DNA of 64,000 nt, from positions 2,170,001 to 2,234,000 of the forward strand of contig BSYQ01000004.1 of the NCBI GenBank assembly GCA_030272585.1. Direction: 5' to 3'. Below, piece after piece: positions 17,272 through 48,049 of this stretch; position 1 is the first letter of the stretch; every line of letters starts with the position of its first letter. The stretch comes from Bryopsis sp. KO-2023. Taxonomy: Eukaryota; Chlorophyta; Ulvophyceae; Bryopsidales; Bryopsidaceae. The notes beneath the pieces are model-generated. The model made no database searches. It had not been told where the DNA came from and saw only the letters and a list, made by a program, of their open reading frames with translations. The translations under genes and the position numbers were made by a program.

Positions 17272-20200
17272 TCAACCTTCCAGAAGTGCTTTCAGGCGAT
17301 CTTTCTCTCCTTTGCCGCATTTCCCCTTTCCACATGGTTGCTCAGCATCGAGGCAAAAACAAATCATATCCACAGGCTTGAACCCGAAGATGTTCTCAAT
17401 ATCAACATCAGCACCAGCGTCAAGCAAAACTTCAATGGCTTCATCATTCCCATGAACGGCCGCATATCCTAAAGGCGTGATTCTACCTATATTTTGAGCA
17501 TCTTTTTCGCCTCCGCTGTCCAAAATCAGCTGAACCAGCTTTTTTCCTCCATAAGGAGCAGCACCCAGCAACACCGTGTCCCCTACAATGTTCTTGGCAT
17601 TCACATCCGCACCTGATGACATAGCCAATGATGACTTGCTGAGTACTGCATTGTAATGTAATGTACTGTATTGTACTGTACTGTGATATGTCATTGTGAC
17701 CGTGAAACATACATTTCTTTGTATGGGGTTTGCCTGGAGTGCTGCCGAAACTACTATGATATGCAAAACTGGCAGTCCACCTCAGATAATTTGGTATTCA
17801 AAAGGATCATGTTTGAGACAACCAAGCTTTGTGTGTCCTAAATTCCCATCGCTCAAAATAAAACAATTCTTTTTCCTCGACGGCACCTGATTCCAAAAGG
17901 AACTCAGCCACCTCTAAGTGGACATTGTGAGCTGCTGATATCAAAGGGGTGACTCCAGCGTCTCTTTTCAAATCCACAGTTGCACCTGAAACAAGGAGTG
18001 GCAACATATCAAATTAGTATCACCGATTCATGGAAATAGATTAGAAAGTGCTTACAATGCAGCAGTGGGAGCTCATCATTAAATATTTTCTGGTCTCGGC
18101 GTTTTCCCACCTTATCATAGGTATTTTACCCTGGAGAATAACAGGAATAGAAAAAAAAATAGAAAAAAATAGAATATAATTAATTGAATTCAAAGTGGGC
18201 AATTTGTTTTGATATTGGGTGTGTAGAAGAGTGTTTTGTTTTGTTTCACAGGAGGATTGGGCAGTGAATTTTCAGCAAAAAAACAGCATGGGTGCCAGCA
18301 TTTCGATACATTTTGGATTAAAGAGATCTGTTCTAATCCAACAATGCCATCTTCCCCACAACCCCCCCCCCCCCCCCCCTTTACACAAAAAAAAAGAAAA
18401 AAAAACCCGCTTGGTCACCAATATTTTTTTTCTATTTTCTTTCAAGCAAAAAGTGCACCAAGGAAACACACACACACACGTCCTGGGTAAGATGGTTAAA
18501 CTGCTTGAAAGTTTGGAGTGGAAGGCCGGATAGGTCTAGGGTTCGAATCGGGGTAGAGCAGAGTACTGCCAGCTGGCACACAATTAGAGAGTGAACAGTT
18601 GCAACTGTACAATTGTATAGACTTGGGGATTCAGACACAGACGACATGATCAATGGGTGTGATACCGAAAGGTCAAAACGCCGACACGTAAGAAAGATTC
18701 CGGACACACACACACACATCCAGAGTTTCTGCACTAAGATTTCAGATATATTAAATTTAATTACAAAAAAAAAAAACGAAAGCAAAGCAAAGCAAATGGA
18801 GCTTCACTGCTACACACATCACCTGCTTTTACCAAAACCTTGACAACCTCCAAATGGTCTTTTTGTACAGCAGAATGCAATGCAGCTCCGCCGGCCCTAT
18901 TCTGTGCATCGATTTCGGCCCCTGCATCACGCAAACGGTTTGAATTTTTTATTTATATATATAATTTCTTTAATATCTGTTTTGACAAGTACAAGACAAA
19001 GCTTAATCTATTTTCTGAACGGCGGTAATATAAGTTGCGCCATCTGCTTTCAGAGGAGTTTCCTCCATTCCAAAAAAAAAAAGGTCAAACTGGAGATCAG
19101 AATGAATGGCCGGATTGAGCAACAAAACAAAATGCACTTCTCCCTAGTCCATTTCATTCGTCGAAATATATATGTATATACTCGGCCCCTGCAGCGATTC
19201 TTGAAGCAAGAATTGCAACACGTTTCTGTAGTTTTTGCCCCCAGTTGATGCCAGGATAAACTATATGAATGGTTGGCCTTGTTTCGAAATTGGCGGCTTG
19301 ATTTCCTTCGAAACTGGCCGGGGGGACAACATCAAAAATGTACGATTTGTTCTGAGAGTGCATCGAGCAGGCCGACTGATCACCTGCTTCGAGCAAAATT
19401 TCAACAACATCCACATGCCCCTCCTCGGCAGCAGCATGTAGAGGAGTAAACTTCCTATCAAGATGTGTGGAGGACACATCGGCCCCTTTTGCAATCAGCT
19501 CCTACACATCCATAAGCACTGCTTGGTTGTCTTTTGATCATCTTTTTAAGGAAGTGGGAGTTTTTTCGTTTGGCTTGAATACGACAGCAACAGTCAAAAA
19601 GCCCAACCTTGACTTCGGTAGATTCCCCAGCGCCAGCAGCAGTGAACAACTCTTTGTTCAATGTGGTGAGACTCTTCTTGCCTCTTGTCTGTTCAAAAAC
19701 AACAGCAGGAAAAATCTTAGTTGCCAAGAAATGGCTTGCAATTGTGTTTTGTGGCAGAAGAGGAACTGGAGCTGGAAGCTGGGACTGTTAATTCATTTTT
19801 CCGTACAAAAAACAGCCCCAGCGCTGGGACCCCCATTACTGCACAGCTTCTCTTTCTTGGAGGATGTACACAAACCACCACGAACGCCATTCGAGAGGCC
19901 CATGCTCACCGACTTCAGTGGTGGAATTCTATTGGTGGTGGAAGTTGCCATTTTTTCATCGATCCATCGGCGAAAGCTGCTGACTCTGGTGTACACGTCA
20001 GGTTTCGTTGCATTGCAGAAATCCGCCCCAAAAGATACGATGCCAACCAGCAAATCGTATCGGGGATTCCCGTCTGTAATGCTGTCCCTCCCCTTGCTGT
20101 CAGCAATCAACAAAGGACCTCCAGAATCACCTAGAGAATTTTCAAAACAGTATATAAGTCCCCAGGAAAAGATAACCCATTCGGACAAGAGCTTCAGACT

Positions 20201-21261
20201 TGTAGCACCAACAACTGGAAGCAAGCATGTGTTTGAGAAAACTCAAAAAGTTTCTTGGAATGTGAGGGTTCTGAGAAAATTGTCACAAAGGGTGTTTTCG
20301 GGCCAACCATAAAAGCACTTCGATGGAAAAAACACGCACTTGTTAAATCGAGGCCAAAATCCTTAAAACGAATTCCTAAAAATCATGGATCTGACGACCA
20401 ATAAAAAAAAATATTGGTCCGAAATGTTTGATTTTTATTATGTACCTACCATACAATCTAATGATTCAAAAGAAAAAACGCGAAAAATTGTACAAATAAG
20501 AGCTGACACAATTCTCCTGTTTGCATTGCATATTTCCCAAGTTCGACGAATTACCCTCGCATACTGCTTGGGTGGGGTAGTGTGCACAAAGCATACTGTT
20601 TTGGAGAATAGGCCACAGCTTTTCACAATTTTGGTTGCTGACATATTCCAATTGGTCAGAAAATTGAAGCACCGTGGGAAAAGGACCACGAGTGCTGGTT
20701 CTTCCCCACCCTGCTGCGACCAGCTTTTGACCAGATCCAAGCAGTTGCTCGCTTTGGGCAAACTCTACTGGTTTCTTTGTGGTGGAGGGCTTCTTGAGCC
20801 GTATCAGCGCAATATCAAAACCACCCTCTGCGTTTCCTTTGTAATTCTCATGAATGATGACCTCCACTGCGAAAATGACCTACAAATGCACCATGTAATC
20901 GTATAGCGGCGCCTTGAATGAGGATTCCACCCTGTTTCTGCTTTTCCGTGGGCATTGTGCTTAGCAGGACCATCACAATCGGAAAGTGCCATGCAAAAAT
21001 ATGAGCAGAATCCTGGTTTCCCCACGAATGCCCAATTTCGTAGACTTAGAGTACCTCTGCAAATATGTCATCATCGATTCCATGGGCACCCACATACACA
21101 ACCGGTGTTGGCCCGGCAGAGTCTTCCCCAACTACACAGTGGGCTGCAGTCAGGACCCACTCAGGGGCGATCAATGTCCCTCCACATCGATGAGAACGAG
21201 AGCCCACTGTTCTCAAAGAACATGCATATGGAAACCTCCGTTCGGGAGCAGGTTCACCGCC
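17272..21261 (-). CDS. Serine protease-ankyrin fusion, copy A (5' exon unresolved)
   Basis: Exons in reading order are 21055-21261, 20555-20879, 19910-20130, 19608-19688, 19384-19501, 18823-18921, 17887-17985 and 17272-17612: 1491 nt, 496 residues to the stop, with every phase matching copies B and C. The S1-family protease has all three catalytic residues: TAAHC (His), GGFDIAL (Asp) and GDSGGP (Ser). The disulfide cysteines CGG/AHC and VC-EGDS/FC are present. The S1 pocket differs from trypsin: position 189 reads Ala and position 226 reads Asp (KPDVYT). A 27-residue linker exon leads into about five ankyrin repeats and a Cys-containing tail ending RLKALLEG. A signal-peptide exon should lie upstream but I could not fix it; a 1.3-kb transposon sits in that first intron and another in the 5' flank, so copy A may be poorly expressed or dead. 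Confidence 0.8.
18486..18720 (+). repeat. Possible tRNA-derived SINE in an intron of copy A
   Basis: GATGGTTAAACTGCTTGA resembles a Pol III A box and GGGTTCGAATC about 40 bases on matches a B box. Both flanks carry the same (AC)n-(A/C/G)TCC sequence, which could be a target duplication or two parts of one simple repeat. No second full copy in this window confirms it. Confidence 0.3.
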
Positions 21262-21308
21262 CTGCACACGCATCAATGCAAAGCTTCACATGTTGCTTCC
21301 CTGTTTTC

Positions 21309-22629
21309 TTCACCAACAGACCTGGGCCCGACCGGACCGGCAGCGAAAAACCGGTCCGGTCCGGTCCAACCTGTCCATGGACCGGCTGACCTGTCCGGTC
21401 CTGTCCGGTCCAACGAAAAAACGCCGGTCCTTGCAAGACCGGACAGGTTGTGACCTGTCCGGTCCTGTCCACTCCGGTCCAGTCAACCTCGGAAATCTGC
21501 AGAAATCTGGACCGGTTTTCTGACAGATTTTCCGTTTTTAGACAGGTCACACCCACATTTCGCCTTTATTAGACCGGCGATGTGACCTGTCTAAAACCGG
21601 AACGACCCTGTCTTGACAGGGTTGTTCTCCTGTTTTAGACCGGCTCCAGGTCGGTCTGGACAGGTGGGCTGCCTGTCCAGACCGACCTGGCACCTGTCTA
21701 GAACAGGTCGCACAATTAAGCACTTTTAACGTGCTAATTGTGTATCAATCGATTGGGAACTGATTCAATTGATTAAAGAACAAAGTATTATTTATTATAT
21801 ACATTTTTAATGCATGAATGATGTGAGCCAAGCCCACCAGCCACCGACTAGAGGGAGTCGGTCGACTCAAGGAGGATTCGAACCCGGGTTGGCTAAGCCC
21901 GAGTCGAAGACACTATCGCTAGTGGACCCCACCACAGGGACGCTCAAAAGGGGGTCGTTACTTTTAAGTACCCGTTTAATTTTCCAAAATTAAACGGGTA
22001 CTTAAAAGTAACGACCCCCTTTTGAGCGTCCCTGTGGTGGGGTCCACTAGCGATAGTGTCTTCGACTCGGGCTTAGCCAACCCGGGTTCGAATCCTCCTT
22101 GAGTCGACCGACTCCCTCTAGTCGGTGGCTGGTGGGCTTGGCTCACATCATTCATGCATTAAAAATGTATATAATAAATAATACTTTGTTCTTTAATCAA
22201 TTGAATCAGTTCTCAATCGATTAACACATTAAAAAGTGCTTAATTGTGTGACCTGTTCTAGACAGGTGCCAGGTCGGTCTGGACAGGCGGCCCACCTGTC
22301 CAGACCGACTTGGAGTCGGTCTAAAACAGGTCATATTGGGCGTCACATCGGTCTAAAACAGGGTCACACCGGTCTAAAACAGGTCACACGAGTATGACCG
22401 TACTAGACAGGCGACAACCTGTCTGGAAAGGTCAAATCCGGTCCAGAAAGGTCAAATCCGGTCTAGAAAAGGTGGCCTTTACTAGACCGGATTTGACCTT
22501 TCTTGGACCGGATTTGACCTTTCCAGACCGGATTTGACCTGTCTAAGAAAGGTCAAATCCGGTCCAGAAAGTGGTTGCCGGTCCTGTCCGGTCCGGTCCA
22601 ACGGGTTGGCGCCCAGGTCTGTTCACCAA
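21309..22629. mobile_element. Fold-back hAT-like non-autonomous transposon with 8-bp target duplication
   Basis: The element spans 21317-22621 (1305 bp) and is flanked on both sides by the identical octamer TTCACCAA (21309-21316 and 22622-22629). It begins CAGACCTGGGC and ends with the exact reverse complement GCCCAGGTCTG. An 8-bp duplication and a CAG terminus are hAT features. The whole element is a near-perfect giant palindrome with its axis at 21984/21985. Its outer arms are dense GGTCCGGTCC, GACCTGTC and related short motifs; its inner arms are unique sequence including a Pol III B-box-like GGGTTCGAATCC. No transposase frame is present. It lies in the first intron of copy A. Confidence 0.85.
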
Positions 22630-22639
22630 CACCCTTGAT

Positions 22640-23935
22640 CAGAACCAGAACCGGCAAGGAACTAGACGTGAGTTTTCGAAGTCAGATTCACTTTTCTAAA
22701 TGATATATCTATTTATAGATATGATGACCTCATCCCCATCATTGATTTCTACCCACAACGATGAGTGGCACTTGAAGCAGCTTCCGAAGCGAAGGAGCGA
22801 TCGACGTCCCGTCATCCTGAATGTCAGACACACGAACGCAGGTGAATCCCAGTCAGAAATTGGGAGAAAAGTAACGCATGGAAATCCACGACCCGCACCT
22901 CCCGATCGCCGCCACGCGAAGACCCTGCGAATCCAAGCAACACGGTAAACCACAGATCCAAATGAAGAATGGGTTTTATCCGGGAGGAACACGTCCGAAA
23001 TTGGTCCGACCCACCAATCGCCCGACCACACATGATTTTCTGTGTGGAAACGCAGCAGAGCGCCCATAGTATGAAGAAGACGAGCATGGGAACCAGGTTC
23101 GACGGGGCTTTCGACTTGACGAGAAGAAGGTTCCGATCGCGACAGGTTTAGGAGAGTCGGAGTGCCACCCGTTCTCGTCAGTGCGTTCCGTGCAAGCATA
23201 TGGTTACCGTAGATAGGGTAATATTTGCGCGCATGAACTTTCGCGTGTTTTATTTTTGCGACACTAATTTTTGCGATTCAATCAGGTCGCAAAAATTAGT
23301 GCAACGCAAACATTAGGCTGCGCAAAAAAAAAAGCTGCGCAAAAGAAAAGCTGCGCAACACACGAACCAAGTGCACGTCTCTTCCTAGCTCATTTCCCCC
23401 TAAACGATACGAGTCAACACCCTTTGCGTAGCCCATGCGGCTCCAATCGACCCCTCCCCAACCAGTCGCTGCCCTTCGCAACCTTTCTTAGCTACTGAGC
23501 CATGTTCGAGACGCCTTCGCACAGCATGTACATAGCCGTTGTTCAGGATGCCTGGATGGCTGTCACTGATCCAAGGGTGTGAAATTGAAGTGATGGATTA
23601 TTGTGGGGAGGTACCAGTAGCTTCACTCTGTTTGCTTTTTTCTGTTACCCTTTGTTTGCGTTGGTCTTTGTTTGCGTTGGTCTTTGTTTGCGTTGGTGGG
23701 ATGTCTGCGCGCGCTTATTAATTGCGGTGCTTCAAGTTTTGCGACACTAATTTTTGCGATTTTTCCTACTCGCAAAAATTAGTCCAACGCAAAAATTACC
23801 CTATCTACGGTATATAGAACAGTATACCCCGCTTCTTGTGCATAATCGAGGAGCCCAGTCCTGCTAGGTGCCTGGATGTACCAGGAACGACGCTTTTTCC
23901 AAACAGTCATAAGCCCCGACGGCCATGGGCAGGGA
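22640..23935 (-). other. 5' flank / candidate upstream exons of copy A (split by a transposon)
   Basis: This is homologous to 23,945-24,680 (plus, before copy B) and 48,530-49,205 (minus, before copy C). Conserved splice-like points on this strand include an acceptor GCAG before a 26-nt segment ending GAG|GTG, and an acceptor ACATTCAG followed by a segment ending in GTGG|GTAGA. No single frame stays open in all three copies, so the 5' exon structure is unresolved and the block could even have been transcribed in the other direction. Confidence 0.4.
23205..23812. mobile_element. TA-flanked non-autonomous DNA transposon (mariner-like MITE)
   Basis: The element spans 23207-23810. It starts CCGTAGATAGGGTAAT and ends with its reverse complement ATTACCCTATCTACGG, with TA on both sides. 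Just inside each end is a second hairpin built from TTTTTGCGACACTAATTTTTGCG-like and complementary sequence. No transposase frame is present. It interrupts the 5' flank of copy A at a point that is continuous in copy C. Confidence 0.75.
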
Positions 23936-23944
23936 TCTGACGGA

Positions 23945-24680
23945 CATGTCACATGTGCTACAGACTGTGAAACACTCCACGTCAGGCATGGTGGATTACT
24001 GTTTGGCACGCCGACCGTTGTTTCTTGCTGTGGCTGCGCGCTGTGCAAGCGAAAGGTCCGGGATGGCTCGTGACTATTTGGAGAAGAGCCGTGTCCACAA
24101 GACCGATGTCGTTCGCGGCAAGTTTGTATTCTGCTGGTTCCAGGCGCCTATCAGGACTGGGGTCGTCTGGACAGATCTGGCAAACACAACAAGCGTGACG
24201 CACAACATATGCTTGCACAGGACGAACAGTGGCAACTCGACCTCGTTTAACCTTTTCGCGGGGTTCTCTTCGCAAGATCGAGATTGAGTTTCGCCCAACC
24301 CGCGTCCTATGGCGCTGTTCTTGATACTGTGAGCGCTTTGCTGCGTTTCAACGCAAAAAGTTCCTTGTGTTCGTGCGACAGGTGGGGCGGTTCAGACTTG
24401 ACATTTGACGCTCTCCCCCTTCCCCCCCGTTACGTTGAAGCTTATTCGCCTGATGGATATGTGATGTCGAATCTTTTGGCTTGCAGGGCTCGCGCCTGGC
24501 GGCGACCGAGAGGTGTGTCCTCTTGCTCCAGATGCATGTTTTTTTTAAAGAATGTCTGAGTCGAGATGTGTGACGGCATGTCTGACATTCAGGATGACGG
24601 GACATCGATCACTCCTTCGCTTCGGAACCTGCTGCAGGACGCAGAGGCTTTCATTGCTGTGGGTAGACGCCCCCAATTAA
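23945..24680 (+). other. 5' flank / candidate upstream exons of copy B
   Basis: This matches the 5' flank of copy C (48,530-49,205) at most positions. A possible signal-like stretch RRPLFLAVAARCASE is readable on plus from about 24,005 and continues as an open frame to 24,287, but copy C lacks an upstream ATG in that frame. On the opposite strand a CVCQICPDDPSPDRR frame is shared by B and C. Copies A and B meet head to head near 23,940, so a shared promoter is likely. Confidence 0.4.
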
Positions 24681-24880
24681 ACATGCATGCTCCTACTCCT
24701 CTGCTTTTGGGAAATATAAATATCACTCACCAGCTTTGATTTTCACGATGGCAAATGTCTTGGGAGATGAAAATTCACACAGTCTCCACCCCATGAAATG
24801 AATGGCATCTTCAGCACCAGGCAATTTTCCACAGGATGTTTTAGGAAGAATGATGGGAGGCATTAGGTTTGTCTGTACAG

Positions 24881-27800
24881 AAGTCTTCAGACGCTCCTGA
24901 GGGGAGGTTTCCATATGCTTGCTCTTTGAGAGAGGTGGGCACTCGGATTCATATCTGTGGAGGTACATTGATTGCTGCCAGCTGGGTTTTGACTGCAGCG
25001 CATTGTGTGGAAGGGGAAGGCTCCACAGGGCCAACGCCCATTGTTTACGTGGGTGCCTATGGAATCGAAGATGAGTCATCTGCAGAGGTACTCGAAGTTT
25101 TCAAGCTCCCACAGTCTCACAACAAAATGTGTAAGAAAAAAGTGGGGGATAAAGATTGGCCTTATTTAAGTTTTTGGAGAGCCTCCTCATAATGCAAATT
25201 GAGGCGGAAGTCAACACTCGGCCAACACTCATGCAAGGATATTGGTTCGCTTGTAGATAATACAGGCAGAGGATGTTTTTGTCCACGAGAGGTACAGCGG
25301 CGATGTTGAGGGTGGCTTTGACGTCGCCCTGCTGCTGCTGAAAGAGCCCTCCTCCAAACAGCCAGCAACCCTCCCCCACCCTCAGCAAAGCATTGGAGTG
25401 GGCCTGCCTTTGGCGGCTGTAGGGTGGGGAAAAACCAGCGAACGTGGTGCGTTTCCAGAAGTGCTTCAATTGGCGGATGAACTCCCCTATGTAACCAACA
25501 AAAGCTGTCGAAAAAAGTGGCCCAAGCTCAAAGACAACATGCTATGTGCATTCTCCGGATCGCAAGGGACATGCAAGGGTAATCAGTCGGAAATTCCAGG
25601 CACCAATTCCAGACAAGCATGTTCTGTATGACCTTCCAAACATTCGTCATATTTATCGACCCTTTTTTAATTTTGCCAGGCGATTCTGGAGGTCCTCTGC
25701 TGATTCTTGACACCAAGCGGGGCTTCAACATCAAGGCTGGCAAACCAGAATTCGATCTGTTGGTTGGCATCGTCTCGTATGGCCCTGAAGGCTGTGGTTC
25801 GAGAAACGCAACAGAAGCCAAACCTGACGTCTACACCAGGCTAAGTGCTTTCCGGCAATGGATCGATGAAAAAATGGGGAGGGCTTCACCGAAAACCACC
25901 CCTGCTCCGGTGAGCAGCTATTTCAATTTGTGCCGTTGGGTTTTTATTGACCCCTTCACTAACCAAAAAACAATTTGGATCCAGTGCATTCACATTTCTT
26001 GCATGACTAAGCATTCCTGTCTGTCATCAAAACAGAGAAAATGTGGCAGTGATTGCGACGAACTGGACAAAGACCTATACCTTGCTGCCTTTGATGGGGA
26101 AGCCGACAATGTCAAGGTCAGCTGTTGCTTTTGTTTTTAATCCATGAAAAGTGCATTTGCTCCAATAGGGTTTGACATGGGTGTACGTACTGGTTTGTAG
26201 AGGTTGCTTTCAAAGGGGGCCAATGTATCATCCACATTCAAAGGGTATACTCCGTTGCATTACTCCGTTGCTGCTGAGACGGGACATCCAGAAATAGTCG
26301 AAACATTGATCGAAGCAGGTAATTGGCTGCACTGTTCAATGTTCTCCCATAATCCAGGATTTTTTTTTTTCTGAATGTGTTATGTACAGTTTCCACTCAG
26401 GGTAAACCAACTGGCATGTTATCAATCTGCTAAGACCATGGCATGCAACGTAATAGGGGCTGACATCGATGCACGGAGCCGTGTTGGCGGTGCATCTCCA
26501 TTGTTTTTGACTGCTCGGTTTGGTCATTTGGATGTTGTCGAGGTTTTGATAAAAGCAGGTGAATTGTGGCAGAAACCCTCAGTGCGTTTTCTGCAACATC
26601 CAGTGAATCTCACAATGTGATTATGATAGAAGAGACAATAATTTAACCCAGCAAATGCCCTCACTTCATGAATTGCAATGTCCTATTTTTTTGGGTTCCT
26701 ATTCCATGGGGGGCCTGTGGATCTGCGAATAAAGAGTGGGACGGAAAAATACAGATTCCTTTTTTAGAGTGTAAAGTTTACTCAATGTTGCAATGCTGCT
26801 TGATTTTTCCTCAAGAGTTAAAAACAGAAAAGGGTTGTTTATCATCTCTTGAAGCAGATAATTTTGCATGATTACTCATTGCAGGGGCAAATCTTGATGC
26901 ACAGGATGACCAAGGCTTGAGTGCATTATATGTTGCTGCACTGGCTGGGCAATTGGATGTGGTCAAATTTCTGGTCGGTGCAGGTAAATTGTGACTACAG
27001 CTCCATCCTCTTGCACTTCCTGTTGGAACTCTGGATGCATATGCTGGAATTCCTGCCATGTTTGTGAAACAAAACATTTGTGAGTCAGACAGAAACATCT
27101 ATTGCGATATATATCAAAACTGTCAAAACTAGATGATGGACGAGTGATCCTATTTGCAAGGAAAACTTTTCTTCTTCTTTTGTTTTCGAAAACAACAAGG
27201 GGGGGGCGGGGATGGAGCTGCATACACTCGTTGAAATATGCAACTCCTTCTTTCTGTCTTGTGTTGTTTCAAAAAATAATTTTTCAATTATTGAAATGGG
27301 TATCACAGAATGTATCCAAATGCTTCAAGATGCTCTTGCTCGAGGAGCACCGTCCAAAAAATAAATAAAAATGTGAATAAGTTCATGGTAGATTGTTGTA
27401 TTGGCTCATGTCAGACGTAAACGCGACGCTTTTGGCCACTTGATGTTTCAGGGGCAACTGTGGATTTAGAATCTGAACAAGAATTCACCCCTTTTCTCAT
27501 TGCCGTTCAAGCAAATCGATTGGAGGTGGCTGCATTTCTTCTGGAATCAGGTGTGCATGCGGAATGAACAATATGAGGTTGAAGTATGAAAAACTGTACA
27601 AGGGTCAGCAAATAGAGAGTTCTGTTTGAAATTCTCTGCATGCTGATGGTGGTTCGGGTGAACATTTTTATCCTGGCCAGTGAAGATCGTATACTCCCCA
27701 GGTTTTTCCTGCTTATTGTGTGGTGTCACCTCCTAGTATGCAACTTCAGTCTAAAAATGAAACAAAAAAATCAAAGCTTCGATCATTTTTTTGCAGGGGC

Positions 27801-28564
27801 CGATGTTGATGCACAAACTGACCAAGGCATGACTGCGTTGTACTTTGTTGCATTTGATGGTCGCTTGGATTTTGCCAAGATTCTGGTCAAAGCAGGTAAA
27901 TTTCGATGGAGAATTTCCACACATATCCTTGTTGGATTGTCAGACTTTGACTTATCATAGTTATGTAACCTTTTCGGCCACTTGTTGTTTCAGGGGCAAC
28001 TGTGGATTTGAAATCCAATCAGGGATTCCCCCCTTTGATGATCTCCGCACAACAAGGTCAATTGGAGATGGTGGAGTTTCTTCTGGAATCAGGTGCCCCA
28101 TCCCACCTGTTGATTTTCCTACCGCCGATTTTTATAGACAGGCATCTCAAGCAAAATTCCACGCAAGGAGAGGGTTCTTCGAAAGTAATTTTGACAGAAC
28201 GGAAATGTCTGCAGGTGCTGATGTGAATGCCCAAAATAGAGAAGGCTTAGCACCCTTGCACTTTGCTGCCATTGGTGATGGCGATGGGAAGCTAGTTCAA
28301 TTGCTTTTGGACAATGGGGCCGAAATCGATGCTCGAAACAAGTTTGGAAGGACTCCCATATTCACTGCAGCCTTTTATGGGAACGGAGATGCTCTGGCAG
28401 TTTTGAAAAAGGCCGGCGCTGATCTCAGTATCAAAGACAAGGATGGCAATAACATCGAAGAGCGTATTTGCACCTGCTTGAAAGTGAGCAGGGGGTTGGG
28501 TTGTTCGGAAGGAACTTGTGGGGAAGGAGAGAAAGAACGACTGGAAGCAATTTTGAATGGTTGA
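24881..28564 (+). CDS. Serine protease-ankyrin fusion, copy B (5' exon unresolved)
   Basis: Exons 24881-25087, 25257-25578, 25680-25909, 26036-26116, 26201-26318, 26457-26558, 26885-26983, 27452-27550, 27797-27895, 27994-28092 and 28215-28564 total 1806 nt, 601 residues to the stop. The protease triad is intact (TAAHC, GGFDVAL, GDSGGP). Pocket residues by chymotrypsin numbering are Gly189 and Asp226, the pair known from fiddler-crab collagenase rather than trypsin's Asp189/Gly226. After a short RKCGSDCDE linker come about eight ankyrin repeats, mostly one per 99-102 nt exon in phase 1-1, then a tail with CTC, GCSEGTCGEGEKERL. A secreted protease fused to normally intracellular-type repeats is unusual. 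Relative to copy C it lacks two ankyrin exons and carries a 6-nt in-frame insertion in the first ankyrin exon. Confidence 0.85.
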
Positions 28565-29911: not shown

Positions 29912-32900
29912 ATGTCGTTGATGGCCAGCTCTCGGCGGGGGAGCGTTCCATTCACCTCCTCCAGATGGTGTACGTTTTTCTCGGTCTGCATTTTCATCTT
30001 CCTATGTTTCCTTTATGTCGAACGCGGCAGCCCTTCCTTGGGCTCAAGCGGCATGCGCGTGGTCTCCATCCCTGAAGGTAATATAAGAGGCCAGAGAATT
30101 TTTTAAAAAATTCTGGTATAATATGGATTATTTTAATTCCAGTGTTATTTTTTTCAACTGTACTGATACCCCGAAAGCCTCGTGTAAATGAGTGAAATGA
30201 CCTTTATGACATTGTGGTTGCTGTTTTTTTCTGCTTTTTTTGAATTTTTTTTTGTATTGAAGGTGGCATGCGGATGTACGAACAAACCATGACTCGCATA
30301 AAAGACACTGTACAAGGGACCATGCAGTCCGTGTCCAGCACACCAACACTGGGGACCTCCGGCCCGGAAATGAAAACGAGAAAATACAAGATCGAAGATC
30401 CCAAAGTGATCTGTAAGGCTGAAGAAGCACACCTTTCTTTTTTGTTTTGATTTTTCCGGATTGTTTTTTTTTTTGGGGGGGGGGGGGGGTTTTTTGATTG
30501 ACGGGGGAGGGAACTTGGGAGGGGGAAGAATTTTACAGTTTTTTTTTAATGTTTTTTTTCTCAGCTGACATTTCGAAAGTGGTGAGCCCTTCCGAGGCAG
30601 GGATTTCTGCCAAAGAAGCAGACTATCCGCCCGAAATGCAAAATTTCGTGAAAGCGACCAATCGAGGGTTGACTTTGGATGGCCAGCCTTTTTTCATTAC
30701 TGGGTTCAACAATTACTACCTGGTGACAAGGGCAGCCTGGCTCGGAGAGGGAAGAAATATGGTATGAGAAGCAAAAAAAAACCGAGAAAAAACCCAATCA
30801 ATGTCTGTGAATCATCAGCACTAGTTTTTTAACACAATCTTTTGCCGCACAGCATCAGGTTTTTGGCCTTGTGTTGGTTAATCCAGCTTTTTTGGAATAT
30901 GCCAGTGTTTGAATGAAATTCTGTTTGTTTCGAGTGTTTCATGTCGCTGATCACATGGTACACCCTTCTGCTGCAATTTTTTTTTCTTGTTTCTTGTTTT
31001 TTTTTCCTTTTTCTATTTTTTTTTTTTGGAAACCAAGCAAAAATGGGATGGAAGGATGCAACCATATTGATGCTCATTTTCCTGGGTGCAGACAGACGAA
31101 GTGTTTGAGAGCGCGAGAAATTTGGGCTCCAATACGTTGAGAATTTGGGGCTTTGTGGATGGAGACAATTGGAACGCATTACAGCCAGAGGCAGGAGTAA
31201 TTGATGAAAAAATGTTCAGGTGAGGGCGCAATGAATCGGTCATGCATTGATATTTTCAAGTTCTTCTTTTTTGGTTGGAAATTATGTACTGTCTTTTGAA
31301 ATATTTGAGGAGATGTTGCGGTACACCCCTGAATATCGGTGTTTTTTTTTGGGTCCAATATTGCTTGTGAAAAGGTTCAAGGGGATGCTAGTAATTTTCA
31401 CCCATTTGCACAGTAGATGGGATGTTTTTCGTTTATTGCTTCATCGCTTTGTAGATTTAAGCAACAATTAGTTGAGAATATAAATATAATAAAAAAAGTG
31501 TAACTACTTCAGCTGTGCCGTTCAAAGTGGATTCGAAGCAGTTTTCCTGTTGTGACTTCTTCTTTTTCTCCCGGGGTTGTATTCTCGCACAGCAATGGTC
31601 TGGATTATGTTGTGGCCAATGCTCAAAAATATGGAATCCGGCTGATCGTCAGTTTCACGAACTACTGGGATGCCTATGGAGGAATGCTGCAATACGTCAA
31701 ATGGGCTAACAAAACCAGCATCGCAGATTTCTACACAGACCCGCAAATCAAGGTAGCCAGCGTTCGTTTCATATCAAGGGAGGTTTTTATGTGTTCGGGG
31801 TCGTTTTTTCTTTTCTTTTTTCCGTGACATTCATCCAAACAAGAAAAAGTTGTGCAATCCTGCAATACAAATTAAAAGAAAAAAAAAATTAAAAGAAATC
31901 TGAACAGGAAAAAAGACGATAGATGCTCTCTTTTTTTTGTTTTAGAAAGTTGGTTTTTCCCTTTTTTTTTGTTGCCTATGTATGATCAAGTGGCCCAATA
32001 TCTATTTTTGATATTTTTATTTTTATTTTGAATGAAGAATCATCGTGGTTTTTCTTTTCTTTCTTTTTCCTTAGAGCATGTTCAAAGACTACATATATTA
32101 CGTGATAAATCGGAAAAACACGGTGGATGGAGTGTTGTACAAAAACAACCCCGCCATTTTAGGATGGGAAATCGCCAACGAGCCCAGAGATCCGGGTGTA
32201 CCTGGCAGCCCGGCCCTGCAAGTACGTTTTGCTTATCTTTTCAAGTTCAGTGAATTTTCCGTATATTAAATGTTTCGAAATCTGATGCACAATAGAAAAT
32301 TTTCCGTAGTGAGGTTGAAGTGTTTTCCTGACCCCTAGAAGATTCCAGGGATCTTCGAATATCCCTGAAAAAAGAATAAAAAAAATCAGAAGTTGTCCAA
32401 CCAGTGAATTAGATTAGATTAGTCGGTCTTTTCTTAAATCAAACTTGTATTCGGCAGTTTTTTCGTGTTTTTGTTTTTTCCAGTGAGGAATGTAATGAAC
32501 CTGTCAAGGTTTTTCCAGATTCTATCATCAATCGTTCGGCCTTTGCTTTGTCGGTCCAGTCTCAGTTTTTACTGTTTTTTTTTTTTTTTTAATTCTCTGA
32601 TGCAGGCATGGATAGAAGAAATCGCAGGCTACGTGAAGAAACTGGACTCCAACCATTTGGTGATGGTGGGTTCCGAAGGCTTTTTCGGACCCTCCACAGC
32701 CAGCAAATCCAGACTGAGCGCAAACCCTTACACCCAGGTGTTCGCCCCCATCAGCAAAAGACCTTATCATTACGATGCTGTTTGCGAAGGGGCAGATTTC
32801 GAAGCCAACAACAAACCAAACTCCATCGACATTGCCGTGATCCATGCATATCCAGACCATTGGGCAGCTTGCGACGATGACTGCAAAACAAACTTCGCAA

Positions 32901-34503
32901 AGAGATGGGTGCGTGCCCCCATTAAAATCCATTCTTCTTTCTGTTTCTTAAACCTTTTGCTTTCATGGATTTACTCTTGATTTTTCAGCTTGAAAAATCG
33001 AAACTGAGACTGGAATATGACCACTGCATTGAATTGTTTTTGGTTGGATGCCCCCCCCCCCCTCCTTTTCTTTCTTTTTCGATTTCAAAATAAAAATGGT
33101 GTTAATGTAGATTCGACACCATTTGGAGGCTGCAGCTGAGCTTGGTCGACCTCTATTGATCGGAGAGTTCAATGCGCTGAAGCCTGTCGCCAGAAGGAAT
33201 TCTTTCATTCAGTTGGTCCACACAGAACTGGTTTCTGCAGCAAAGAAGGGATATCCTGTGGCAGGTCAGCCTCCCCTCCCTTCACTTGCCACCCTATCGT
33301 TTTTCCCTTACTCAACAACTTTCTTCTTTTTTTTAAATTTAGATGGAAAAAAATACATTTTCTTTCCAGGTCAACGGAACATGCCCTGCATTTTTCTAGT
33401 TCATTTTGCTCCCTCTCCCCCCGCCCCACCTAAAAAAAAACAAAAAAACAAAAAACCCAGTATTTCTTTTCAATATCATTGCCAATTTCAATATTGTTTT
33501 ATTCGTGTTTAGTGAAGGGTTTTCTTTTGGTGGCCCCCTCCTAGGAAGCCTTGCATGGATGCTGACAGGCTCAAGCTATCCAGACTACGATGGATTCAGC
33601 ATTTACCACAACAATGAAACAGCTGCACACCTCCCTAGACCTCCATGGAACATGCCAGACACGGAAAGAGTGAGTTGGGTTTTGTTTAGCTTTCGATAAA
33701 GTGTGACCATGTCGAGGTCAGTCATGGAGCCATCAACTGGAAAGAAAACAGAACATATTAGCACATTTGCTGATGCAGGACTGACACAGCAAAGAAATTG
33801 AATCCCTGTCGACATTTTTTTTGCAGCCTCGATGTATTTTTTTTTTTTGTCTTGGGGTATCAAGAGCTACCCTTGTTTTTAATCTTATAATTATTTTTTA
33901 ATTTTAATTTTAATATCACTGATTTGAACCTTGGGGGGTAATGCACTGCAGGAAGTGGAGAGGGCCTCGCACTACAAACTCAAGGAAATGCTGGAGTGCA
34001 TGGCAAAACGGGCCGAAGAGTATGTGTCAGACGAGGGGCTGCATTTGAATGATGGCTGGGAAGACACGAGCAAGATCATCTCTGATCATGTTCAGGTAAT
34101 TCACATCATCTCCACCCAAAAAAAAGAAAAAAAAAATAATCCCCTGTTGTTTTTTTTGGAATAGCACCCCTGTATTCGAAAAAGGACCTACTGGACATTG
34201 AAGAGTTGACTGTACATATTCTAAACGCTTGTAAAATTACTGAGAAATGAATGTACATATATTCTGGTTGGTCTTTTTTCTTGTTTATGTATAGTTGAAG
34301 AATCACAGTGGGGTTTCCTTCACATACCGCATTTTCTGTTTTTTCAAATAAGGAAATTCGTGAGAAATATTGTTGATTGATTCGCATGACCGCCCTCAGC
34401 ATGAACAAAAACTACATGATTTGATGGATGCTGTCTGTTTTTTCTTCTACTGTTTTTTTGTTTTTTTCGACAGGAGCTTAACAAAGTGACCGAGGTGGCA
34501 TGA
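29912..34503 (+). CDS. MAN: Membrane-anchored GH5 mannan endo-1,4-beta-mannosidase
   Basis: Eleven exons: 29912-30077, 30263-30412, 30565-30761, 31092-31219, 31593-31752, 32075-32221, 32606-32908, 33111-33264, 33545-33669, 33952-34095 and 34474-34503 sum to 1704 nt, 567 residues. Endo-mannanases cut beta-1,4-mannan backbones of walls and storage polysaccharide. The N-terminus has a basic stretch and one hydrophobic segment (about residues 21-35), so it is a type II anchor or an uncleaved signal. The catalytic domain starts near residue 130 with GFNNYYLVTRAAW and NTLRIWGF. The acid/base Glu is in WEIANEP (Glu303) and the nucleophile is in LIGEFN (Glu436). HAYPDHW precedes the nucleophile as in the family. 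The last exon has only nine codons plus the stop and could be an annotation risk, but its phase fits. A long Ser/Thr/Pro stem separates anchor and enzyme, as expected for a Golgi or surface enzyme. Confidence 0.88.
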
Positions 34504-35582: not shown

Positions 35583-38500
35583 TCACATTTTGGACCTGGC
35601 TTTCATCCTTGGTTCAAGAACCTCATGCCAAGCAGGTCCCTCCTCTGTTTTGTTCAGCGGAGAGCCTTGTGCCATCTCGAACAAGCTCCTATACACGTCG
35701 CCATCCGCCCGACCCAACGCACTGTTCAGTTCGTAGTCCAGCAAACCGAACGCATCCACCAAGCCTACCGCGTTTTCCCGAACTCCACGGATGACTTGCT
35801 TGTGTTGCACGCGAATCATTTTCACTTGGGCCGGCGTCATGTATCCGAATTCCAGGTAATCCCCAGATTCTTTCTCGAGATAGGTCAATGCAAACAGGGA
35901 AAGGAGGGACCTCAGCACTTGGCGAGTGGGTGGTGACAGCGCTCCATCCAGCTCAATCTGAGCAACGCTTTCGAGGAAATTCTTGTAAACGAAGTACAAG
36001 CTGTGGGCGGTCGCCGCCCTGGATGAAAGAGATTCACAAATATCAGCCTCCAGGCATGCACCCAGAACATACCCAACATATGAGCAACACATGTCCAAAT
36101 ATCAATGTATCACTGCGTTTCTGGTGGTCATGCCAAAGCATGCCGGCAAAGGAAGGCAACCACTTCCGTCCAATCCCATCCAAAACCAAACCATCAATTC
36201 TAGACAGGTTCATTCCTTCCCGTTTTTTTATTCTTCTTTGGAATAAAGATGCCCATATTGAGCATACCAAACAGCAGCTCCTTAGTCTTGTAAGCAAAGC
36301 GAAACATGAACACAACAAAGAACCGCCCTCATCCCCAAAGGTGCCCAAATCCACTACCTAGCCTTAGGAGGATTAGGTGGGGGGTAGTGCAGCACCCTCT
36401 GGCATAGAACACCAGTAATATTCCAACAAATGGGCTTACTTGATCACAATGAGGGTGTTGTTGTCCCATGCAGCCCCTTGAAACGAAGGACTTCCACCAG
36501 CGGCTTTCTTCAGCTCTTCAGCAGCCATCGCCACCAGTCTCAGTGCCCTGTGCCGGAACGCAGCCAACTGAGCTTCCGTGTCCAGCCATTGACCAGGGTC
36601 GGTGATCGAACACTTCTTGGTCAACTCTGAGCGGACATTCTCAAGGTATTTGGAGGTCCCCGATAGGGGCTTCCCAGACATCGCGGTGGCGAGTGCTTTG
36701 ACCAGGAATCGACCGGTTTGGAGGTAGAGCACATTGTTGTCCCCTTCCCATGTGGCATTCTATACAAAATCAAATACATCACCACATCATTCCATTTGCT
36801 CCACAGTTTGATGGATGGGGTCAAATCTTGTTTGAGAATTGAATATGGGTTCCCACCACCACCAGCACCACCGAGTGAAGGAAAAAGAACATTTTCAGGC
36901 TTTCACGTTTTTTCCTACCTGAACATAGGACCCGTAGAGATCAGGGAAAGCGGACAGCCGGCTGTATCCGTGTCCCCCAGCAGAGAGCCTGCATTTTTCG
37001 ACGCCCTCACAGGCAACCGTCGTGCAAAACGATTTCAAGCCGGAAGATAACGCATGCAATTCGGGGAGCGTGCTGAACACCCCCTGGTCTCTGTTCCGCT
37101 CGAATTCGTGATACATTTCCATCATCGTCTTGCCGGTGAAATGGAGTGCGTAAGCGGAGGCCACTATCGGCAGCAGAGTGCCAGAAACATTCTGGTAGTC
37201 CAAAACCTATGGGAAAACAAAAATAAATCAAAAAAAGAGCTAACAAAAAAAAATCAAGAAGCATGGAAGATTGTATTATTGCACCCTCAAGTGGCTGAGA
37301 ACACTTGAACACAGAAAAGGGAAGGGTTCTTTTTTGCAATCGATTATGGTTAGGGTTCTCCATAAAGAAGACAATGTCTTAGCAGTCGACAAACATCTTG
37401 TCACAGCCCCACAAATTTCACATTTTTTTTTCCTCGACACCCCCCTTGCTACCCCCCCCCCCCTCTTTTCTTACCTGTTTCTCAATTTGACCAGGACTTG
37501 CTGCAGTTTGCCGCCTGACAGCAGCATACCTCACAGCAATGGTCGAAGCTTTCATCAGTTGCCTTCCGGAGCCCTCCACAATGGTGGCTCTAATGTACAG
37601 CATGGTTGCGTACGTTGATTTGGTATTGGAAGGCGGCGGAGGAACGTAGTCCCCTTCTGGGGTAACTTTGGTGAACCGCATGAACATGTCTTCCCGGGGA
37701 ATTCGCACATACTCGAATCTCAAAAAACCATTGTCCACCCCATTGTACCCAAATTTCGGGCCGATATCCCCCACCGTGACTCCTGGCATGGGTTTATGGT
37801 GTTCAAGGTCTCGAAGCTGGAGGTGGCAAGCGAGCGTTCCACCAAAATAGAAACACGTAAGGGATGCGCAGGCTAATGAAAAGCTATGCAAATTCAGAAA
37901 TCGGCAAAAATTTCCATAAAAAAAGAGGAAAGAAGGGTGGAAAATGAGAGAGCGGAGGGATGCTTTTAATCAACAACCAACCTAAACCATGAAAAGGATG
38001 TTTTAACTAACAACCGACCTGAACCATGAAACCGTGGGGACCGTAATCTTTTCCCCTGATGAACAATCGAGCCATGACGACGGCGTGGGTTGCAGTTTTC
38101 GCCAGTCCGCCGGGCCACCACTTGGTGCTGGTGGTGGTGGGCGAATGTATTATGAACTCTTGTCTGTCTGGATCGTAGGTAGCTGTGGTTTCCAAGCCCC
38201 TCAGAAACGTACCGTGACCCAGCTCCGTTTGAGCATAAGTCCCGATGATTTCGACCTTCTGGGCCATAGGCAGCCATTTGGCTTGCTGCTCAGGGGTGCA
38301 AAGACCGATTATGGATGGAATGAACATCTGAAGGGGGAAAAAAAAAAATATCATGTAAAGCGTAAACACAAAAAACAATCAGAAGGGCATAATCGATCGA
38401 AAGGGAGTAAGGGCTCACTCCAATGTGCAGCTCCAAGCCACCGGGCCAGTCCACCAGGGTTCGTATCATGCTTCCATCTTCGATAGAAAGCTTGTTTTTC

Positions 38501-40268: not shown

Positions 40269-41284
40269 AGGACACCCCCACCTCCTTTTTCTATTCCTGT
40301 GAGGTCCTCCGTTGAAAAGCTATACAAGTTTCGAGATGCGTTGTGTTGGTGTCTCCAGCTCGACAAAACTTAGCAGCAATTTTTTCTTGGCGATTTTCAG
40401 CACTGTGTTGTGGTTTCATTCTTTTTCCATAACATTTTTTGCTGTGAACCGCTTGCGTGGCGCCACGTTGGACACACGCCACGTTTGCGTGTGGAATTTG
40501 TGAGTAAAAAAGCTCGCACAGGCTTGCCAGTACAATGTGGACGTCAGCACCCAGGAACACACAAGTACCAGGCGACTGTTTGGCCCAACCGAAAACGCCA
40601 CGGGCACCCAGAGTCTTGACTGCTGGAGCTCGATCGTGGCGAACAGAAAGCACCCGGCGAGGAGCCTCCAGCCAGCACCAGTAAGTAGCCGGTTGAGCCG
40701 GTTGTGAATGCTTGCATCCCGATGAGTGGACAAGGCGGCCTTTTTTAGTCGTTTGCCGACCTTATGCGCCAATAAAGCAACGTACCGCGGCCACTGTTAA
40801 CCTCTCTGATATACCGTTCTGCACGGAACAGCGACAGCTCCGCAAGTTTTAGTTGCATGGCTGGACCATGGGTTGCACCAGAATTGTCTCGCGTTTGGTT
40901 TCTGTGGAGAGGTTTGCGATATTCTGGTACAGCGGTCTCGTCCATAGTTTGGTTTCAGCTGCGCGACCCGTTTATTTTCGAAGCGCGTTTTGATGCGCTT
41001 TCTCGTTGGAGGGAATCAATTCTTAAATCTCCTTCCCGAACTTTTCTCAGGAAGACTTGCTTTTTCCTTCCAGTGAACTGCACTTTTTCAAGCTGTTCGG
41101 TGAAAGACGCCGTGTCGCGGGCTTTTTTTCGCCCTCGACACAATTTGTGTGTTGCTGTGTGTGTCTTGTGGTCCCGCAAGTATCGATGGAATTTCCGTGC
41201 TCAGCCAATACTCCTTAAAGGAGTAAAGGCGGTGTCAGATGCGAGTGTTTGGTGTACGCTGACTTTCTTGTGTATCTCGCGCAG
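40269..41284. other. Divergent intergenic region
   Basis: This is the probable shared promoter of the ACX gene (minus) and the unknown six-exon gene (plus). A plus-strand frame 40857-41288 could supply a 5' exon of the latter (a donor GGTGAAA lies near 41,100), but nothing confirms it. A minus-strand frame 40416-40772 is hydrophobic in places but has no recognisable domain. Confidence 0.35.
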
Positions 41285-43577: not shown

Positions 43578-43835
43578 GTAAAAAGCCAAGGTAAAAAAAA
43601 TATCCCAGGGAACTTTTTTGATGAAGGCATCATGAGGATTAGAAGGGAAAAAGGTTTGGGACCTTATTCAATAGCTGGAAATGTACAATATGTCAAATCA
43701 GGAGGTTTTCGACACTTCCCCTCAAATCATGTACTAAGATGAAAAGCGTAGCGTGTAAGAAATGAAAAAAAAAAAAAAGAATCGCTGCTGCCTGAGCAGC
43801 CCCCCCTTTTCCACAATGCAAAGACACCTATGAAA

Positions 43836-46800
43836 TCAACCATTCAAAATTGCTTCCAGTCGTTCTTTCTCTCCTTCCCCACAAGTTCCTTCCGAACAAC
43901 CCAACCCCCTGCTCACTTTCAAGCAGGTGCAAATACGCTCTTCGATGTTATTGCCATCCTTGTCTTTGATACTGAGATCAGCGCCGGCCTTTTTCAAAAC
44001 TGCCAGAGCATCTCCGTTCCCATAAAAGGTTGCAGTGAATATGGGAGTCCTTCCCAACTTGTTTCGAGCATTGATTTCGGCCCCATTGTCCAAAAGCAAT
44101 TGAACTAGCTTCCCATCACCACCACCAACGGCAGCAGAGTGCAAGGGTGCTCCGCCTTCTTTATCCTGGGCATTCACATCAGCACCTGCAGACATTTCCG
44201 TTCTGTCAAAATTACCTTCCAAGAACTCTCTCCTTGCGTGGAATTTTGCTTGAGATGCATGTATATAAACATCAGCGGTAGGAAAATCGACAGGTGAGAC
44301 GGGGCACCTGATTCCAGAAGAAACTCTACCATCTTCATTGCATTCACTGATGCTGCAACACTCAGTGGGGTGTCGCCAGTATCTCTCCTCGAATCCACGG
44401 TTGCCCCTGGGAAAAACCAAAAACCAAAAACCAAAACCTTGAACGAGTTCTAAACAGTGGGGGTAGGAATCTGTATGGGTTTTGTCCTGGTACAAAAAAA
44501 ATTAGTACACCTCCGAACACGATGAGGCGTTCTGGCACAGCTTACCTGCTTTGACCAAAACCTTGGCAACATCCAGGTGACCGTTTTGTGCAGCAAGAAA
44601 CAATGCAGTTACATCCTGGACATTTTGTGCATCGACATTGGCCCCTGTAACGCATGGTGGCAGATTTGAGGGGGAATTGTATTCTCAAGAGAAGCCTGTT
44701 TACTACACTTCAGAGTGTACACACATTCGCTGTCATTTTGTTGGGAGTGATTGGCCGTGAACATGTGGGACAAATTTTCCCCATGCACACCTGATTCCAG
44801 AAGAAATTCCACCATCTCCACTTGACCTTGTTGTGCTGCGATCATCAAAGGGGGGAATCCCTGATTGGATTTTAAATCCACAGTTGCCCCTGAAACAAGT
44901 GGGCGAAAAGGTTACGTGTATAGCTATGACAAGTCAAAGTCTGACAATCCAACAAGGATATATGTGGAACTTCTCCATCGGAATTTACCTGCTTTGACCA
45001 GAATCTTGGCAAAATCCAAGCGACCATCAAATGCAACAAAGTACAATGCAGTTATGCCTAGATCAGTTTGTGCATCAACATCGGCCCCTGAAAAAAAGTG
45101 ATCGAAGCTTTTATTTTTTTATTTCATTTTTAGACTGAAGTTGCATACTAGGAGGACACAATAAGCACAATAAGCAGGAAAAACCTGCAAAGTACACGAT
45201 CTTCACTGGCCAGGATAAAAATGTTCACCCGAACCACCATCAGCATGCAGAGAATTTCAAACAGAACTCTCTATTTGCTGACCCTTGTACAGTTTTTCAT
45301 ACTTCAACCTCATATTGTTCATTCCGCATGCACACCTGATTCCAGAAGAAATGCAGCCACCTCCAATCGATTTTCTTGAACGGCAATGAGAAAAGGGGTG
45401 AATTCTTGTTCAGATTCTAAATCCACAGTTGCCCCTGAAACATCAAGTGGCCAAAAGCGTCGCGTTTACGTCTGACATGAGCCAATACAACAATCTACCA
45501 TGAACTTATTCACATTTTTATTTATTTTTTGGACGGTGCTCCTCGAGCAAGAGCATCTTGAAGCATTTGGATACATTCTGTGATACCCATTTCAATAATT
45601 GAAAAATTATTTTTTGAAACAACACAAGACAGAAAGAAAGAGTCGCATATTTCAACAAGTGTATGCAGCTCCATCCCCGCCCCCCCCCTTGTTTTCGAAA
45701 ACAATAGAAGAAGAAAAGTTTTCCTTGCAAATAGGATCACTCGTCCATCATCTAGTTTTGACAGTTTTGATATATATCGCAATAGATGTTTCTGTCTGAC
45801 TCACAAATGTTTTGTTTCACAAACATGGCAGGAATTCCAGCATATGCATCCAGAGTTCCAACAGGAAGTGCAAGAGGATGGAGCTGTAGTCACAATTTAC
45901 CTGCACCGACCAGAAATTTGACCACATCCAATTGCCCATCCAGTGCAGCAACATATAATGCACTCAAGCCTTGGTCATCCTGTGCATCAAGATTTGCCCC
46001 TGCCATGAGTAATCATGCAAAATTATCTGCTTCAAGAGATGATAAACAACCCTTTTCTGTTTTCACCTCTTGAGGAAAAATCAAGCAGCATTGCAACATT
46101 GAGTAAACTTTTCACTCTAAAAAAAGGAATTTGTATTTTGCCTTCCCGCTCTTTGTTTGCATATCCACAGGCCCCCCATGGAATAGGAACCCCAAAAAAT
46201 AGGAAATTGCAATTCATGAAGTGAGGGCATTTGCTGGGTTAAGTTATTGTCTCTATCATAATCACATTGTGAGATTCACTGGATGTTGCAGAAAACGCAC
46301 TGAGGGTTTCTGCCACAATTCACCTGCTTTTATCAAAACCTCGACAACATCCAAATGACCAAACCGAGCAGAGAAATACAATGGAGATGCACCACTAACA
46401 CGGCTCCGTGCGTCGATGTCAGCCCCTATTACGTTGCATGTCATGGTCTTAGCAGATTGATAACATGCCAGTTGGTTTACCCTGAGTGGAAACTATACAT
46501 AGCACATTCAGAAAAAAAAACCCTGGATTATGGGAGAACATTGAACAGTGCAGCCAATTACCTGCTTCGAGCAATGTTTCGACTATTTCTGGATGTCCCT
46601 TCTCAGCAGCACCATGCAACGGAGTAAACCCTTTGAATGTGGATGATACATCGGCCCCCTTTGAAAGCAACCTCTACAAACCAGTACGTACACCCATGTC
46701 AAACCCTATTGGAGCAAATGCACTTTTCATGGATTAAAAACAAAAGCAACAGCTGACCTTGACATTGTCGGCTTCCCCATCAAAGGCAGCAAAGTATAGG

Positions 46801-47945
46801 TCTTCGTCCAGTTTGTCGCAATCACTGCCACATTTTCTCTATTTTGATGACAGACATGAATGCTTAGTCATGCAAGGAATGTGAATGCACTGGATCCAAT
46901 TTTTTTTTGTGTGGAAAGGGGCCAACAGCACGAATTGAAAGAGCTGCTCACCGGAGCAGGGGTGGTTTTGGGTGAAGGCCTCCCCATTTTTTCATCGATC
47001 CATTGCCGGAAAGCAGTGAGCCTGGTGTAGACGTCAGGTTTGGCTTCCTTTGCGTTTTTGGAACCACAGCCTTCAGGGCCATACGAGACGATGCCAACCA
47101 ACAGATCAAATTCTGGTTTGCCAGCCTTGATGTTGAAGCCCTGCTTGGTGTCAAGAATCAGCAGAGGACCTCCAGAATCACCTGGCAGGATTGAAGAGGT
47201 CAATAAATATGACAAATGTTTGGAAGGTCATACAGAACATGCTTGTCTGGAATTGGTGCCTGGAATCGACTGATTACCCTTGCATGTCCCTTGCGATCCG
47301 GAGAATGCACATAGCATGCTGTCTTTGAGCTTGGGCCACTTTTTTCGACAGCTTTTGTTGGTTTCATAGGGGAGTTCATCCGCCAATTGAAGCACTTCTG
47401 GAAATGCACCACGCTTGCTGGTCTTTCCCCACCCCACAGCTGCCAAAGGCAGCCCCACTCCAATGCTTTGCTGAGGGTGGGGGAGGGTTGCTGGCTGTTT
47501 GGTAGAGGCCTTTTTCAGCAGTAGCAGGGCGACATCAAAGCCACCCTCAACATCGCCACTGTACCTCTCGTGGACAAAAACATCCTCTGCCTGTATTACC
47601 TACGAGCGAACCAATATCCTTTCATGAGTATTGGCCGAGTGTTGACTTCCGCCTCAATTTGCAACATGATGAGGATCTCCAAGAAATTCAAAAAGGCTTT
47701 TTCCCCCACCCCCCAGGGAGCTTGAAAACTTCGAGTACCTCTGCAGATGACTCATCTTCGATTCCGTAGGCACCCACATAAACAATGGGTGTTGGCCCTG
47801 TGGAGCCTTCACCTTCCACACAATGCGCTGCAGTCAAAACCCAGCGGGCAGCAATCAAGGTACCTCCACAGATATGAATCCGAGTGCCCACCTCTCTCAA
47901 AGAGCAAGCATATGGAAACCTCCCCTCAGGAGCGTCTGAAGACCC
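43836..47945 (-). CDS. Serine protease-ankyrin fusion, copy C (5' exon unresolved)
   Basis: Exons in reading order are 47739-47945, 47278-47599, 46952-47181, 46758-46838, 46562-46673, 46324-46425, 45901-45999, 45336-45434, 44989-45087, 44791-44889, 44546-44644, 44308-44406 and 43836-44185: 1998 nt, 665 residues to the stop. This is the longest copy, with about ten ankyrin repeats. Triad (TAAHC, GGFDVAL, GDSGGP) and pocket (Gly189, Asp226) match copy B. Exons and introns are nearly identical to copy B over the whole length, including intron text around 45,520-45,800 against 27,100-27,370, so the duplication is recent or kept uniform by gene conversion. The two ankyrin exons 44546-44644 and 44308-44406 have no counterpart in B. 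A 330-bp insertion lies just upstream of the first listed exon. Confidence 0.85.
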
Positions 47946-48049
47946 CTGCACAGACAAACCTAATGCCTCCCATCATTCTTCCTAAACAAAACATCCTGTG
48001 GGAAATTGCCTGGTTTGACAGATGCAATTCGTTTCATGGGGTGGAGAAC

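Follow-up and report, generated by a model that had tools for sequence, protein, structure and literature searches.

Three protease-ankyrin genes in the window

The window analysed here, a stretch of 64,000 nucleotides from the green alga Bryopsis sp. KO-2023 (C4:2170001-2234000 of a 91,088,769-base, 28-contig assembly), contains three genes, A, B and C, in which a chymotrypsin-type (S1) protease is followed by an array of ankyrin repeats. Contig C28 of the assembly (91,672 bases) has a green-type rbcL beside a frame similar to atpA. We placed their exons using open reading frames, GT-AG splice sites, intron phase and comparison among the three copies. Each gene forms a single spliced frame with GT-AG introns and agreeing phases, so that the three multi-exon fusion genes of the original prediction are found where, and in the order in which, they had been proposed. 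The reported span holds for the exons from the protease to the array end, but each gene begins further 5', with leader and propeptide exons that had been missed.

All three share one exon plan. A hydrophobic leader is followed by a pair of small propeptide exons and by three exons for S1; then come a linker, a first ankyrin exon, a run of one-repeat ankyrin exons (99-102 nt each, with phase-1 introns on both sides) and an end exon that encodes about two repeats plus a tail with four Cys. The features below are given in window positions; they come from the exon maps, with Pfam matches in addition for gene A, its S1 and ankyrin exons, and gene C.

Gene A, 17272..23087, minus strand: 11 exons, 543 amino acids, open throughout
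Gene A leader, 23015-23087, minus strand
Gene A propeptide exons, 22899-22924 and 22757-22816, minus strand
Gene A S1 exons, 21055-21261, 20555-about 20861 and 19910-20130, minus strand
Gene A linker, 19608-19688, minus strand
Gene A ankyrin exons, 19384-19501, 18823-18921 and 17887-17985, minus strand
Gene A end exon, 17272-17612, minus strand
Gene B, 24309..28564, plus strand: 14 exons
Gene B leader, 24309-24381, plus strand: in-frame TGA at codon 8
Gene B S1 exons, 24881-25087, about 25266-25578 and 25680-25909, plus strand
Gene B linker, 26036-26116, plus strand
Gene B six ankyrin exons, then end exon 28215-28564, plus strand
Gene C, 43836..48893, minus strand: 16 exons, 715-717 amino acids, open throughout
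Gene C leader, 48821-48893, minus strand
Gene C S1 exons, 47739-47945, about 47278-47590 and 46952-47181, minus strand
Gene C linker, 46758-46838, minus strand
Gene C eight ankyrin exons, then end exon 43836-44185, minus strand

The proteins of A and C were scanned against Pfam, and both match the Trypsin profile over all 220 positions (1-220/220; E 2.1e-45 for A and 2.4e-40 for C), while tandem 33-residue repeats in the same proteins fit the Ank profile (E 1.7e-34 and 5.2e-78, respectively). His57, Asp102 and Ser195 are complete in A, B and C (residue numbers follow chymotrypsin), in agreement with the complete protease that had been predicted. The predicted Cys-containing tail is likewise there, as four Cys after the array; Cys is absent between linker and tail in all three genes, and from the linker of A as well. 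Ankyrin arrays are also present as described, but the range of 4-10 repeats should be replaced by counts, made by eye, of about 6 (A), 9 (B) and 11 (C), including the repeats in the linker/first and last exons. The linker exon encodes, in one frame, both the last part of the protease tail and the beginning of the first repeat. Because alternative acceptors lie close by in intron 4 of gene A and in the same intron of B and C, the join there is uncertain by 2-4 residues.

Genes B and C are inverted copies with 93% identity across 3.3 kb, introns included, and therefore do not count as independent evidence. Compared with B, gene C has two additional ankyrin exons (44308-44406 and 44546-44644). 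They lie at the site where the two B/C matches overlap, listed here with its basis:

Overlap of 33 bp between the two B/C matches, 28063..28095, plus strand: at the end of B's last one-repeat exon (match coordinates, exon maps, exon identities)

This is as expected if recombination between like exons had lost or gained a pair of repeats.

Family size and arrangement

Searching the genome with the end exon of C gave 149 matches, and with its Ser exon 86. Scoring covered the best 150 of 471 end-exon candidates, which makes the family counts lower bounds; the weaker end-exon matches are ordinary ankyrin genes. When all 86 Ser-exon matches are paired with the best 122 end-exon matches, at least 55 of the 86 have an array end no more than 7 kb downstream on the same strand and without an intervening Ser exon (54 on C4 and one on C3), and 30 do not. 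In the strand control, an array end on the opposite strand is found for only 5 Ser exons. The upstream same-strand control gives 22, because head-to-tail neighbours produce such pairs.

Within 284 kb of C4, 26 loci carry S1 and at least one ankyrin exon. Complete chains, which combine all three S1 exons with one or more ankyrin exons and an end exon, number 22 and are split evenly between the strands (11 each). The recurrence of one exon order in 22 chains on both strands bears out the proposal of a single gene family with S1 and ankyrin in one frame, and makes the outcome of two separate genes very unlikely. Under a simple automatic splice rule 13 of the 22 chains are open end to end, five of these with one flagged boundary; for the remaining nine, failure of the rule and real damage are both possible.

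The genome has 198 S1 matches, and numerous additional S1 genes, among them some with long uninterrupted frames, are found on contigs such as C3, C8 and C9. Land plants are not known to have a comparable S1 gene set. A second S1 cluster, at C14:1110001-1120000, has the same three-exon S1 plan, but no array in either of the two genes read in this 10-kb stretch. Asp replaces Ser195 in both (GDDGG), and they are probably inactive homologs, to judge by this substitution. For both reasons we do not count the cluster in the S1-ankyrin family but assign it to a different group.

Protease heads

The comparison of heads covers the 27 that are complete in the three S1 exons. None of them has lost His57 or Asp102, and 25 retain Ser195; with the inferred splice sites, residue 16 is Val or Ile and the residue just before it Leu or Phe, again in 27 of 27. 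Two otherwise well-formed genes, at 1334 and 1351 kb of C4, carry Gly in place of the catalytic Ser195; their proteins may bind without cleaving.

The heads split into two clades, 17 D-heads and 10 G-heads, which differ in their leaders and specificity pockets. Specifically, residue 226 is Asp in all 17 D-heads and Gly (nine) or Ala (one) in the G-heads, and residue 189, read by eye, is Gly, Ala or Ser. The bacterial and viral S1 frames that served as a comparison mostly have Asp at residue 189 (85 of 98) and Gly at residue 226 (62 of the 74 that are readable). The D-head leader exon begins with ATG in 13 of 17 cases, counting B with its stop. G-heads have a different hydrophobic leader 270-355 bases upstream (10 of 10, picked by eye among candidate frames).

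Exchange of heads and arrays

Three gene pairs locate the points at which similarity begins or ends. The heads of C4_1302 and C4_1314 belong to different clades and share 56% nucleotide identity, whereas their arrays are 94-100% identical, and the genomic match between them, introns included, begins at the linker exon. In the reverse arrangement, C and C4_2129 have heads that are 94% identical and end exons that are 63% identical, with a continuous match that ends 6 bases beyond the first ankyrin exon. For C4_1481 and C4_1365 the match runs across the head and ends 24 bases beyond the first ankyrin exon.

The same decoupling is seen across the family. Head and end-exon identities correlate with r = 0.24 over 231 gene pairs. 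For 21 genes, the approximately unbiased (AU) test rejects the end-exon tree on the S1 data (p 5.4e-19) and the S1 tree on the end-exon data (p 2.9e-26). As a control, the trees of the two S1 halves were compared. They have 10 of 18 splits in common, against 2 of 18 shared with the end exon, and the log-likelihood gaps are 45-48 between the S1 halves against 702-798 for the end-exon tree. The AU test does separate the halves (p 0.003 and 0.0002), the Shimodaira-Hasegawa test does not (0.16 and 0.15), so some exchange within heads is also possible. The D/G split appears in both S1 halves and is absent from the end-exon tree. The nearest neighbour is always of the same clade for each S1 exon (27 of 27 cases) and for the linker (26 of 26); for the first ankyrin exon this holds in 20 of 24 cases, and for the end exon in 14 of 21. 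Heads and arrays have thus been swapped between genes at a hinge formed by the linker and first ankyrin exons. This exchange and the family size are additions to the original prediction.

Constraint and variation along the gene

The pooled ratio of nonsynonymous to synonymous differences per site (pN/pS), calculated for equal-length exon pairs only, climbs steadily along the gene: 0.27, 0.38 and 0.45 for the three S1 exons in order, 0.52 for the linker, 0.58 for the first ankyrin exon, 0.65 for the ankyrin exons and 0.72 for the end exon. The protease exons are thus under stronger constraint than the array exons. In the comparison of B with C, pN/pS rises from 0.21 in the head to 0.77 in the array, and the synonymous divergence (dS) falls from 0.124 to 0.044.

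Within the repeats we considered positions 6, 8, 9, 11, 19 and 20, the ones randomised in designed ankyrin binders. For 73 repeats compared in 550 pairs, amino-acid change is concentrated at these six positions to an extent that none of 500 random position sets reaches. The pattern is variation where a binder would be expected to vary, not proof of positive selection.

A proposed repertoire of exported proteases with recognition arrays

The explanation that we rank first, with about an even chance, is that these genes encode exported zymogen proteases whose recognition arrays can be interchanged, in a family that has expanded in this lineage. It starts from what is observed, namely the gene plan, the lower bound on family size, the intact catalytic residues of most heads, the constraint on the heads and the exchange at the hinge, and adds a putative export, zymogen activation, partner binding and biological role. 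The leader would direct the protein into the secretory route. Cleavage of the propeptide after Leu/Phe would then free the N-terminus at Val/Ile-16 and give an active S1 protease, and the ankyrin array, reached via the linker, would bind a partner and bring the protease to it. Arrays would gain and lose the phase-1 one-repeat exons of which they consist, and would also be traded whole between genes at the linker/first-ankyrin exons, such that one head comes to carry different arrays and the reverse. New specificities would, on this proposal, arise because repeat exons turn over and whole arrays are exchanged.

S1 proteases and ankyrin repeats are each ordinary, but the open-access literature searched does not describe a family in which at least 55 genes, concentrated on one chromosome, fuse the two and show exchange where cutter meets binder. 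Head/array swapping looks like a way to give one type of cutter many different recognition tails. If the arrays bind, this family would be nature's equivalent of enzyme fusions with designed ankyrin binders, and would offer a route to asking how a coenocytic alga, which has to stay alive as one cell despite wounds and resident bacteria, senses damage or strangers on the outside of its cytosol. Within this explanation we tentatively place first a role in recognising microbes or wounds at the cell surface, wall or vacuole. A further-reaching version, which we consider doubtful, is that an organism of the plant lineage has a repertoire of exported protease receptors encoded in its germline, in which two head types combined with exchangeable arrays would tie the recognition of many targets directly to cleavage. 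The neutral-pocket G-heads could then activate the Leu/Phe-cut propeptides of both clades, in a proteolytic cascade with a logic like that of animal clotting or complement.

Several points weigh against a repertoire of exported, binding proteases. Signal peptides were judged from hydrophobicity alone, and ankyrin arrays are unusual in exported proteins. The leader exon of B carries a stop, which would make B a pseudogene unless its start is at another site, and 4 of the 17 D-head leaders have GTG at the ATG position, two of these four loci sharing one leader. Two of the 27 heads lack the catalytic Ser. Positive selection in the arrays was tested by pN/pS at the six repeat positions, and the ratio is not clearly above 1: it is 0.73 (bootstrap 0.61-0.88) against 0.58 elsewhere in the 550 pairs, where a third of random position sets give an equally high value, and 1.06 (0.44-4.64) against 0.41 in the 26 closest pairs. 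Relaxed constraint accounts equally well for these ratios.

A possible but rather unlikely alternative is that the proteins are exported proteases whose array serves as a spacer, scaffold or self-inhibitor instead of a recognition module, and that its variety comes from drift together with gene conversion among the many tandem copies. This would agree with a pooled array pN/pS below 1 (0.58-0.72) and a ratio not clearly above 1 at the binding positions, and with a gene-conversion-like homogenisation of close copies, as in the lower array dS between B and C. However, change is concentrated at the expected binding positions, the arrays retain an open frame and the repeat framework, and drift alone does not explain breakpoints at the hinge in the three pairs examined. 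It is improbable that a giant-celled alga has expanded these genes for dosage, as proteases of digestion or wall remodelling that the array anchors to wall or membrane: a large family with a conserved active site and two head types with different pockets would fit, but dosage does not call for variable, exchanged arrays. Finally, that adjacent protease and ankyrin genes were wrongly joined is hardly credible and was rejected, since, although one complete head in the 284 kb lacks an array (C4 1354180-1355731) and fragments of either kind occur, order, strand and phases are repeated in 22 chains, pairs number 55 on the same strand against 5 on opposite strands, and the linker exon joins the two parts in frame.

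Relatives and known systems

In the open-access literature searched we found no description of an S1-ankyrin fusion family with exchange at the boundary. The earlier statement that no common family has S1 followed by ankyrin nevertheless needs qualifying, as such a protein is encoded in a Pseudoalteromonas genome, at a distant kinship. Among 93 comparison loci (14 viral and 79 bacterial, the latter from the best 80 listed), one of 101 S1 frames also carries ankyrin repeats. This frame (L092:10318-11805) encodes 496 amino acids, begins with a hydrophobic stretch and matches Trypsin (62-256) and Ank_2 in Pfam. It is matched in 15 of 295 genomes of its order at E 1e-15, with near-full-length relatives in four, its own genome included. 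Both kinds of protein have a leader, then S1, then ankyrin repeats, but the bacterial genes are intronless and no array exchange is known for them. Because its S1 domain is only 26% identical to that of C, the bacterial protein is likely a separate fusion. A close bacterial or viral source of the algal fusion was rejected, given a single, distantly related frame among 101.

The closest solved S1 sequences include enteropeptidase, plasma kallikrein, hepsin and crab collagenase (1azz). The pocket of crab collagenase has Gly189/Asp226, and a similar specificity is possible for the D-heads, with their Asp226. Like chymotrypsin-type S1 proteases (PF00089), the algal proteins have a full-length domain, the His-Asp-Ser residues, a zymogen-type N-terminus and, by position, three standard disulfide pairs. 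They differ in the C-terminal ankyrin array, in a propeptide cut predicted after Leu/Phe rather than Arg/Lys, in a residue 189 that is not Asp and, in one clade, in a residue 226 that is Asp. Diversified recognition families such as fungal and plant NLRs and snail FREPs also combine tandem clusters, modular exchange and variable repeat arrays, but here the effector is a predicted exported protease, and any immune role is putative.

Other features of the window

One further piece of the family lies apart from the three genes:

Solitary array end exon, 57767..58108 (C4:2227767-2228108), minus strand: one TGA, protease head not found beside it

It is a probable pseudogene relic. A near-perfect palindrome of 0.7 kb (21629-22330, 95% identical to its own inverse) lies inside the long third intron of gene A and looks like a mobile-element relic. 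Between B and C there is a multi-exon acyl-CoA oxidase gene (35583-38378, minus strand; ACOX E 5.9e-44, Pfam), and at about 30500-33700 on the plus strand possibly a mannanase-like gene, a guess for which the single piece scanned had no Pfam match.

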